Part shown: piece after piece, positions 35,504-39,856 of the stretch | Layout: every line of letters begins with the position of its first letter | Numbering within the stretch: the first letter of the stretch is position 1 | Source: Gammaproteobacteria bacterium | Lineage (GTDB): Bacteria; Pseudomonadota; Gammaproteobacteria; JAJPIJ01 | DNA: 64,000 bases | Direction of reading: 5' to 3' | Assembly: GCA_022072255.1 (NCBI GenBank) | Contig: JAJVHZ010000058.1 | Coordinates: forward strand, 1-64,000 | The notes under the pieces: model-generated | Seen by the model: only the letters and a program-made list of their open reading frames with translations | Database searches by the model: none | What the model was told of the DNA's origin: nothing | Program-made: the position numbers and the translations under genes

Positions 35504-36097
35504 ATGTCACATCACGAATCAATTCACATCTTCATTAATAAGCGCAAGTTCGAGCTGGACAACCCGGTTCAGACGGGCGCAAGCCTCAAGCATCTTGCGG
35601 GCATCCCGCTCCAGGATGTTCTCTTTTTACAGTCCCGCGGTGACGATGAGGTCATCGCCAATGACGCCAAAGTTACGTTGAAGAACGGCGACCATCTTCA
35701 TAGCCAGCCTCCCGCCGACTACGGCCTTGGACAGGCCGAGCTGGGGGAGGCGGGAATCGACTGCTCCCTTGCCACGATTCACGCACAACCTGGCGGATGG
35801 TCCTTCCTCGTAATCTCAGGCTACAAACTCCCCGAAGGTTTCGAGCCTCAAGCGGTCGATCTGCTCATCAAAGTGCCGCCAGCCTTCCCCGACGCGCAGC
35901 CGGACATGTTCTGGGTACACCCGGCCGTGAAGACAGCCTCCGGAACGCTCCCCCGCGCGACCTGCATCGAGAATCTGCTCGGCAAGGACTGGCAGCGTTT
36001 CTCATGGCACCTGAGCGCCGGAGCGTGGCAACCGGGCGTCAGCACGCTGCGGGATTTCATGCGCTGCATCGCTGGGCGTTTACTGCGTAAAGACTAG
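35504..36097 (+). CDS. ubiquitin-like domain fused to E2-like conjugating enzyme
   Basis: A 197-residue fusion. Residues 1-70 resemble the bacterial 'multiubiquitin' beta-grasp domain (HIFINKRKFEL... GDDEVIANDAKVTLKNGDHL). Residues 75-197 resemble the prokaryotic E2 family E: GWSFLVISGYKLPEGF, WVHP and KDWQRFSWHLSAGAW. A His-Pro at 139-140 is followed by Cys154, a spacing compatible with the E2 HPN...Cys active site. Because the UBL is followed directly by E2, no free diglycine tail is visible. AGGAGAG precedes ATG 35504. It is the first gene of a plus-strand operon with the JAMM-E1 gene. Related systems conjugate UBLs in phage defence; the substrate is unknown. Confidence 0.82.
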   Translation: MSHHESIHIFINKRKFELDNPVQTGASLKHLAGIPLQDVLFLQSRGDDEVIANDAKVTLKNGDHLHSQPPADYGLGQAELGEAGIDCSLATIHAQPGGWSFLVISGYKLPEGFEPQAVDLLIKVPPAFPDAQPDMFWVHPAVKTASGTLPRATCIENLLGKDWQRFSWHLSAGAWQPGVSTLRDFMRCIAGRLLRKD

Positions 36098-36108
36098 AGG
36101 AGACCATT

Positions 36109-37431
36109 ATGAAGCTTCGCGTGTTAAAATCAGAATGGCGTCCGTTCATTGATACGCTGTGTGCGAGAACGGACGTTGAGTCAGCGGGCATCATCCTTGC
36201 CGAACGGCTTCACGGCGACAGCGTCTTGTTGGCGCGTCATCTCTCGGCGATCCCTGAGGCTGCATACGCTATCAGGCGGAGAGACCGCATCCGTATCGAT
36301 CCAATCGCGCTCAATCGGATCGTGCGGCCAGCGCGCGACCAAGGGCTTTCAGTCTTGACAATACATACACACCCAGGGACGGATACACCGTGGTTCTCCG
36401 CTGCCGACGATGCGGGTGACTCTATCTTGATGCCGTCGTTATTCACGCAGATGCCCGGTCCTCATGGTTCGCTCGTCGTCGCCGGCAACGCCGGCGTTGT
36501 ATGCGGTCGTGCTTGGACCTCAGCAGACAATGTGGTTCCAGTCACACTGCATGAAATCGGCAATACTCTTCGCGTCACGTCATCCGACGACGCCTGCGGC
36601 ATTGAGCACTGGTTTGACCGGCAGCGCCTTGCTCTGGGTAATACAGGCCAGCATATCCTTCGCGGACTCCATGTCGCAGTAGTAGGGCTTGGCGGCACTG
36701 GCTCGGTGACCTTCGCTCAGCTTGTGCATCTGGGAGTCCGCCAGATTACAGTGATCGATGGCGATCGCATCGAGGACACCAATATCAGTCGCATCTTTGG
36801 TGCAACGGCCGCAGATGCCGGCGTGACTTTGAAGGTTGATGTCGCGGCCCGCTATGCCGCGGCCGCGGGACTCGATACCACGGTGAATATTATTCGCGGA
36901 CATTTGGGACAGGACGTTGATCCAGAAGTTCTCGCCGGTTGTGACGTTGTATTTTCATGCGTCGATGCCCATCTGCCGCGCGCCCTTCTCAATCGTCTGT
37001 CCTACGAGAAGGGAGTGTTGCTCTTCGACATGGGCAGCGCCTTTCGAGTCTGCGAAGGCATCGATACGGTGGGATCAGGACGGGTCGTCGTGATCGGACC
37101 TGGCCGGCCTTGCTTAGCCTGCTGGGGACACATCGATGCGAACCGGATTCGAATTGAATCGCTCTCCACGGACGAACGCGACCAGCAAGCGGCAGAAGGG
37201 TATGTCAGCGGCGCCGATATTCCCCAGCCGAGCGTTGTGGCCTTCAATACCCTAATAGCCGGGGCCGCCGTCGTCGAATTCCTGCGCGTCGTTACTGAAT
37301 TCTCAGGCGCTGAAGATCCGCCCTTGCGTCTGGGTTTCGACTTCACGACTGGAACTGTCCGGCGGAATCGCCTGGCTGGGACGCCCGGTTGCAGGATTTG
37401 CGGGCTTGCCCGTCACAAGCCCAACGGTTAG
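36109..37431 (+). CDS. JAMM peptidase fused to E1/ThiF-like activating enzyme
   Basis: A 440-residue fusion. The N-terminal JAB domain has a complete JAMM motif: Glu32, then HTHP (H86, H88) - seven residues - S97 - two - D100. The C-terminal part (about 185-440) is an E1/ThiF adenylation domain: GLGGTGS near 190-196, then a DGDRIEDTNISR segment and PCLACW...GCRICG cysteine pairs that could bind zinc. So one chain can activate the UBL (adenylation) and cleave it (desampylase-like). GAGGAGACC precedes the ATG. Such JAB-E1 fusions with E2 partners are known in bacterial ubiquitin-like operons; the native target is not. Confidence 0.85.
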   Translation: MKLRVLKSEWRPFIDTLCARTDVESAGIILAERLHGDSVLLARHLSAIPEAAYAIRRRDRIRIDPIALNRIVRPARDQGLSVLTIHTHPGTDTPWFSAADDAGDSILMPSLFTQMPGPHGSLVVAGNAGVVCGRAWTSADNVVPVTLHEIGNTLRVTSSDDACGIEHWFDRQRLALGNTGQHILRGLHVAVVGLGGTGSVTFAQLVHLGVRQITVIDGDRIEDTNISRIFGATAADAGVTLKVDVAARYAAAAGLDTTVNIIRGHLGQDVDPEVLAGCDVVFSCVDAHLPRALLNRLSYEKGVLLFDMGSAFRVCEGIDTVGSGRVVVIGPGRPCLACWGHIDANRIRIESLSTDERDQQAAEGYVSGADIPQPSVVAFNTLIAGAAVVEFLRVVTEFSGAEDPPLRLGFDFTTGTVRRNRLAGTPGCRICGLARHKPNG

Positions 37432-39527: not shown

Positions 39528-39580
39528 TCTTTAGCTTCAATTCCCGAATCGATTTGCTGCAATGATGCAAATGGAGACAT

Positions 39581-39856
39581 ATGGACCTATACACTAAGAA
39601 TGGAAGGCCCCTGCAAGTCTCAGGTAGCACGGTATACAGCCGGTCAGGTCAAGTGGTGGGGCGTATCAGGGGAAACAAGGTTTTTGGCGCAGATAGTCGC
39701 TATGTGGGGACCATCGTGAATGACCGCCTTGTTTACTGTTCCACTGACAGTGCTGGAATCGGTGCGCCATTCGTCGCTGCCAATCGTCCAGGCAGCGCCC
39801 GCGCCAATCGCGCAGGCGCTGCCATATTGGGCGACGAGCTGGATATTCCGGATTGA
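39581..39856 (+). CDS. small beta-rich protein, resembles 4-fold beta-flower family
   Basis: A 91-residue protein with a repeated 'x-G-x-V-G-x-I-x-G-x-x-V' pattern: SGQVVGRIRGNKVF, SRYVGTIVNDRLVY and an N-terminal LYTKNGRPLQVSG. This resembles the 'beta-flower' fold of small proteins seen in bacterial and phage genomes; the identification is from memory of the pattern and is moderate. The disordered tail is Ala/Arg-rich. GGAGAC precedes the start. It may be the last gene of the ubiquitin-like operon. No C-terminal Gly-Gly that would make it a UBL. Confidence 0.6.
   Translation: MDLYTKNGRPLQVSGSTVYSRSGQVVGRIRGNKVFGADSRYVGTIVNDRLVYCSTDSAGIGAPFVAANRPGSARANRAGAAILGDELDIPD

Follow-up and report, generated by a model that had tools for sequence, protein, structure and literature searches.

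A divergent Bub operon with ordinary domain fusions and unusual gene content next to a BREX set

The closest described counterparts of the locus studied here are the type 6e operons, which Iyer et al. (2006) list in row 6e of their Table 1 (PMC1779556). These comprise 1-3 Ub-like domains, an E2/RWD-like protein without the cysteine, a metal-binding protein ('Y') and a fusion of JAB with E1, and in some species a polyUbl is fused to the E2-like domain (PMC1779556). For the Bub pathway, the relevant passages of PMC13373217 cite Ye et al., 2026 and Gong et al., 2025. For the 544 Bub operons treated in that article phage protection is not shown, and it is left open there whether Bub constitutes an immune or a stress pathway (PMC13373217).

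The window, i.e., the whole stretch of 64,000 nucleotides that was analysed (a gammaproteobacterial genome, GenBank assembly GCA_022072255.1, contig JAJVHZ010000058.1, positions 1 to 64,000 of the forward strand), contains a divergent Bub operon in which the domain fusions are ordinary and the gene content is unusual. Four consecutive open reading frames (ORFs) on the + strand were found at exactly the coordinates given in the original prediction. These genes and the domains within them are:

35504-36097, + strand: gene 1, UBL-E2 (ORF, Pfam, model)
35504..35725, + strand: UBL (BubA-like) beta-grasp domain, gene 1 residues 1-74, end ...SQPPADYG74 (Multi_ubiq, AlphaFold2, aligned UBL ends)
35726..35758, + strand: low-confidence linker as judged from pLDDT, gene 1 residues 75-85, presumed cleavage region
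35759..36097, + strand: E2/UBC-fold domain, BubB-like, Prok-E2_E (Prok-E2_E 2.4e-23, BubB fold match, conservation)
36109-37431, + strand: gene 2, BubCD-like JAMM-E1 (ORF, Pfam, match to 9EA4 with E 5.6e-32, conservation)
37446-39527, + strand: gene 3, 693 aa (ORF)
37446..38597, + strand: N-half of gene 3, A family (sequence matches, family profile, alignment)
38598..39527, + strand: C-half of gene 3, probable diverged B partner with C-terminal OmpR-type winged helix (BLASTP, hhalign)
39581-39856, + strand: gene 4, possible beta-flower peptide of 91 aa (ORF, sub-cut-off Bflower matches)

The gaps between genes 1 and 2, 2 and 3, and 3 and 4 measure 11, 14 and 53 nt, respectively, and the four genes may be read as one transcript. 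Clear Shine-Dalgarno sequences precede genes 1, 2 and 4, and a weak one precedes gene 3. No promoter stands out upstream of the operon, and reading of the ORF list alone revealed no obvious regulator between positions 34343 and 35504. Regulators of the CapW, CapH+CapP or CapK+CapS kind are frequent, albeit not universal, beside Bub operons.

With regard to genes 1 and 2, the domain identities originally proposed were right. The matches of gene 1 to Multi_ubiq (2.7e-8) and Prok-E2_E (2.4e-23) both pass the Pfam cut-off, in full agreement with a UBL joined to an E2-like domain, and the same holds true for gene 2 with ThiF (7.7e-31) and Prok-JAB (4.2e-6), i.e., for a JAMM domain joined to E1/ThiF. 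An AlphaFold2 model of gene 1, built from 36 aligned sequences and with a mean pLDDT of 88, has the beta-grasp order of strands and helix in its UBL part. In a fold comparison of this model, residues 3-71 superimposed on the bacterial multi-ubiquitin protein 9D59 (Z 11.8, 1.5 A), such that the beta-grasp nature of the N-terminus is borne out by structure prediction, and residues 70-197 superimposed on Citrobacter BubB 9EAE (Z 16.0, rmsd 2.1 A, 120 residues aligned). Both matches lie well above the next-ranked rows, and residues 71-90 have a pLDDT of 58-67. Among PDB sequences, BubB was retrieved at 1.4e-33 with profile A2 and at 3.3e-6 with gene 1 alone, and the further solved relatives are bacterial multi-ubiquitin proteins. 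Gene 2 matches Citrobacter BubCD 9EA4 over its residues 23-394 (E 5.6e-32). In the genome, Multi_ubiq (PF14452) has one match only. It appears barely credible that the locus is instead an E1/E2/JAB system of the Bil (bacterial ISG15-like) or CBASS type. The general chemistry is alike, and the E1 half of gene 2 is matched by PADLOC E1-E2 profiles (up to 4.5e-9). However, these matches span just a part of E1, the JAB domain is N-terminal to E1 on the same chain, as it is in type 6e, and it is BubCD, BubB and multi-ubiquitin proteins that match best. Cap2 entry 7TO3 reaches a Z of only 7.5, and the best solved relatives are Bub proteins. We consider it practically certain that genes 1 and 2 belong to the Bub pathway.

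Relatives of gene 1 were found at 374 genome loci. For comparison, we assembled 95 operons from the best 80 of these 374 loci, plasmid loci and loci from the same phylum, resulting in 96 operons with the window; five further plasmid operons were checked for DUF6527, bringing the comparison operons to 100 and the total including the window to 101. The patterns applied in the scan of genome contigs, GxxWQRWSRH and [GA]YPDxxPDM[FW], are biased against the clade with an FSWH motif (see below), while the phylum profile search and the tblastn search of plasmids are free of this bias, and the loci from both of these all keep DUF6527. JAMM and E1 reside on one ORF in 96/96 operons and UBL and E2 in 26 of the 96, and PMC1779556 lists both fusions. 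The view that UBL, E2, E1 and JAB are usually kept more separate is therefore wrong for this family.

Within the E2 domain, D134, H169 and W175 are each present in all 96 operons and S167 in 93, the remaining three being gaps. The original prediction had listed HP139-140, of which P140 is conserved (94/96) while H139 is not (10/96), and Cys154. A cysteine occurs at position 154 in only 6/96 operons. On these grounds we reject a classical Cys E2 at C154, and with it the notion that the Bub family relies on a classical E2 Cys. Given the poor conservation of C154 and the strong conservation of D134, S167 and H169, transfer probably proceeds without a classical Cys thioester. The conservation of S167 and H169 would be compatible with an oxyester route, of which it is neither proof nor an identification of the nucleophile. 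Ye and colleagues reportedly found that Bub transfer goes through oxyesters.

The C-terminal end of the UBL deserves separate consideration. Free UBLs of Bub operons mostly have one Gly near the C-terminus, either bare or with a tail, and the ends vary by clade (...INPG, ...TTEG or aromatic-Gly; loci L008-L102). In the clade nearest to the window the UBLs read ...PKANFG, ...PPATFGL or ...PPATFGHGNH, each directly before the stop, and gene 1 reads ...SQPPADYG74-LGQAELGE..., continuing into E2. When this region was aligned by eye with the UBL ends of L011, L015, L131, L132 and L134, G74 emerged as the residue that is presumably reactive after exposure by proteolysis, and since the UBL end runs on into E2, cleavage is presumably needed. 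The original prediction had pointed out that a free UBL with a diglycine tail is not visible; the likely answer lies in the nearest clade, the UBLs of which end in one Gly preceded by an aromatic residue. In the working scheme that we propose, the UBL-E2 precursor would be cut after G74, either by the JAMM domain of gene 2 or by a different protease, and the UBL would thereby be freed, the E1 half would adenylate the new C-terminal Gly, the UBL would then pass to the E2 domain and onward to a target, and the JAMM half would take it off the target again.

Gene 2 keeps the catalytic JAMM residues as well as the glycine-rich nucleotide-binding residues. H86, H88, S97 and D100 of the JAMM set originally listed are each found in 96/96 proteins, while E32 had been chosen wrongly: The catalytic Glu is E24 (95/96), and most relatives have G or R at position 32. 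A tree was built from 96 BubCD proteins, with L131, L132 and L134 left out. The branch leading to gene 2 is its longest (1.88 vs. a median of 0.31), and gene 2 groups with L011, L015 and L016 with an SH-aLRT value of 97, a grouping to be read with the caution due to long branches. These three loci and L131, L132 and L134 constitute the sister clade of the window, with which it shares the E2 motif FSWH and the aromatic-Gly end of the UBL. In contrast to the window, UBL and E2 are separate genes in the sister clade, DUF6527 is kept, and a kinase-like gene is present. The latter gene (~500 aa) is located between BubCD and DUF6527 or near it, matches APH and TCAD9 in the two cases scanned (L015, L134), and possibly represents a dedicated effector or regulator. 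In plasmid loci it is annotated as phosphotransferase. Judged by eye, Bub operons end in varied extra genes, e.g., genes for ClpP/SppA-like proteins in L009 and L020 and for metallopeptidase-like proteins in L008 and L019. Compared with Bub/type 6e operons in general, the window agrees in its UBL, in a Prok-E2_E domain without conserved Cys, in the N-terminal position of JAMM on E1 and in the UBL-E2 fusion known from some species; it differs by FSWH in E2, where WSRH is usual, and by the 693-aa protein and the 91-aa peptide that are present instead of the DUF6527/'Y' protein.

DUF6527 is encoded beside or near BubCD in all 95 comparison operons and in the five additional plasmid operons (100/100); among the 95 it is always on the strand of BubCD and is adjacent in 93, and in two loci there is a gap of ~1.5 kb. 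In the window, a profile derived from the 95 operons and run at full sensitivity found no DUF6527 (best value 0.047, in the BREX region), and none was found in the genome with PF20137, the assembly being ~95% complete. The operon in the window is the sole one without DUF6527 among the 101 compared. For this reason, we class the locus as a variant and not as a complete Bub operon. Reduction or decay of the pathway is conceivable, although gene 2 retains its JAMM and nucleotide-binding residues. According to Ye and colleagues, Bub operons are said to encode a Ser-His protease, with which a Pro-Ser pair and a His that are invariant in DUF6527 (95/95) would fit. The Acidiphilium plasmid pACMV5 (L133) was considered as a second operon without DUF6527 and rejected, as the profile finds one (1.4e-17). 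It lies behind BubCD at 6347-6721 (+) and is missing from the gene table of the plasmid.

Gene 3 was described in the original prediction as an unknown protein that may be the target or sensor, and we found no family for it in Pfam, NCBIfam or PADLOC. There was no meaningful match in the PDB, an AlphaFold2 prediction from the single sequence was uninformative (pLDDT 35), and tblastn and pattern searches of genome contigs, plasmids, phages, viral contigs and 56 relatives yielded no close relative. When 398 genomes of the phylum were searched, proteins of ~410 aa emerged that match residues 40-371 (best 8.3e-14). This A family aligns across the entire N-half of gene 3, which scores 362 bits (4.6e-108) against the family profile, gene 3 itself being among the profile rows. 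In further samples the family occurs in 6/385 genomes and in 2/321 genomes, the latter including that of the window. Where enough sequence is available, the A gene almost always has a B gene behind it. The gene after the remote A homologue L147 is unmatched by the B profile, and in L106 and L108 a DUF3800 or similar gene sits between A and B. The two proteins of the module measure ~410 and ~370 aa, B often bears a Cys-rich motif (L104-L130, L136-L150), and for the A and B proteins of L105 neither Pfam nor PADLOC holds a family. In many loci a LexA-like S24 gene is found upstream, and DUF2924 and serine-recombinase genes are found nearby. By sequence, the assignment of the gene 3 N-half to the A family, from mobile elements, is solid.

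The C-half is more distant. It gave no useful match with the original B profile featuring the Cys motif, such that a direct profile match to the Cys-motif B family was discarded and the link runs via the B partner of L127. In that protein, Trans_reg_C identifies an OmpR-type winged helix at the C-terminus (1.4e-6, above cut-off). The protein aligns with the B profile at 3e-5 in hhalign, and the gene 3 C-half matches it over the winged helix (BLASTP 4e-4). A C-terminal winged helix is likewise present in B of L146 (Trans_reg_C 1.1e-4, below cut-off). With the extended B profile, the C-half gave a collinear but weak hhalign match (0.0034, probability only 9.5%). The C-half is thus a probable diverged B partner fused to A. 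The A-B modules of L104-L130, L146 and L150 resemble gene 3 in an A half alignable over its length and in B directly after A, ending in a winged helix in L127 and L146; they differ in consisting of two genes, often near LexA-like or recombinase genes, whereas the window features one fused gene behind BubCD.

Only a single instance of gene 3 beside Bub genes was observed. No A-family gene is present in any other Bub locus examined, and a recurrent four-gene association was consequently not encountered. That the Bub assignment is correct and gene 3 is a working part of the system has, in our estimation, slightly better than even chances. Located in the DUF6527 slot, gene 3 would then be a system-specific partner, be it a DNA-associated sensor, a regulator or a conjugation target, which amounts to a guess. 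A further-reaching proposal, that the Bub pathway swapped DUF6527 for a captured DNA-binding A+B protein and that UBL conjugation was thereby wired to a winged-helix sensor or target, strikes us as rather unlikely. A replacement in the narrow sense, with gene 3 taking over as processing or targeting factor, is distinctly improbable: DUF6527 is the sole universal partner that is absent, and its place is occupied by gene 3, but the window holds no sequence similarity to DUF6527, the A and B families are without known protease domain, and in the loci read, the mobile elements with an A-family gene have no Bub genes.

Gene 4 had been taken for a beta-flower-like peptide. This identity was not sustained, as its matches to Bflower (1.7e-4) and Bflower_2 (1.8e-4) are both below the gathering cut-off, with 22.4 bits vs. 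a cut-off of 25 for the beta-flower family PF21784. Relatives of gene 4 were not found in other Bub loci.

At 35 kb, the GC content steps from ~0.44 to 0.55-0.58. Downstream of gene 4 the window contains:

40068-41080, + strand: IS630-like transposase, two overlapping ORFs, between gene 4 and BREX (by eye)
41168-57694, - strand: type I BREX set comprising brxA, brxB, brxC, pglX, pglZ and brxL
46002-47792: SLFN_AlbA_2/HATPase accessory gene within the BREX set
51713-52570: HEPN_RiboL-PSP accessory gene within the BREX set

The operon lies at the edge of what resembles an acquired defence island, and this location suggests an antiphage role. The same surroundings bear on the question whether genes 3 and 4 stand outside Bub, in which case an unrelated A+B module from a mobile element would have landed behind the operon, its 3' end with DUF6527 would have been lost and a two-gene remnant would be what is left. 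The mobile-looking island with the GC step and the IS630-like element directly downstream (by eye), the presence of A-B modules in mobile elements, next to genes for serine recombinases and DUF2924, the lack of gene 3 in the other Bub operons examined and its weak Shine-Dalgarno sequence are all in line with such an event. On the other hand, gene 3 starts 14 nt from BubCD on the same strand and lies in the slot of the kinase-like gene and DUF6527 of the sister operons, the active-site residues of BubCD are intact, and no integration scar was seen between genes 2 and 3 on reading the sequence only. Taken together, we regard the remnant scenario as conceivable but doubtful and slightly prefer the reading of gene 3 as a working part of a Bub operon.

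Without the universal DUF6527 and with a UBL pre-fused to E2, the locus would offer a natural minimal system. With it one could test directly if UBL maturation requires DUF6527, if the JAMM half of BubCD alone is sufficient and if a single neighbouring protein serves as target. Two features are worth following, namely that one of the 101 operons lacks DUF6527 and that an A+B protein occupies the slot. No Pfam family was found for the A-B gene pair, which merits study in its own right. The intergenic region ahead of gene 1 contains, near the GC step, a perfect 19-bp inverted repeat, ACCCTCGGTTCGCTCACTC, at 35075-35093 and 35183-35201, with 89 nt between the arms.
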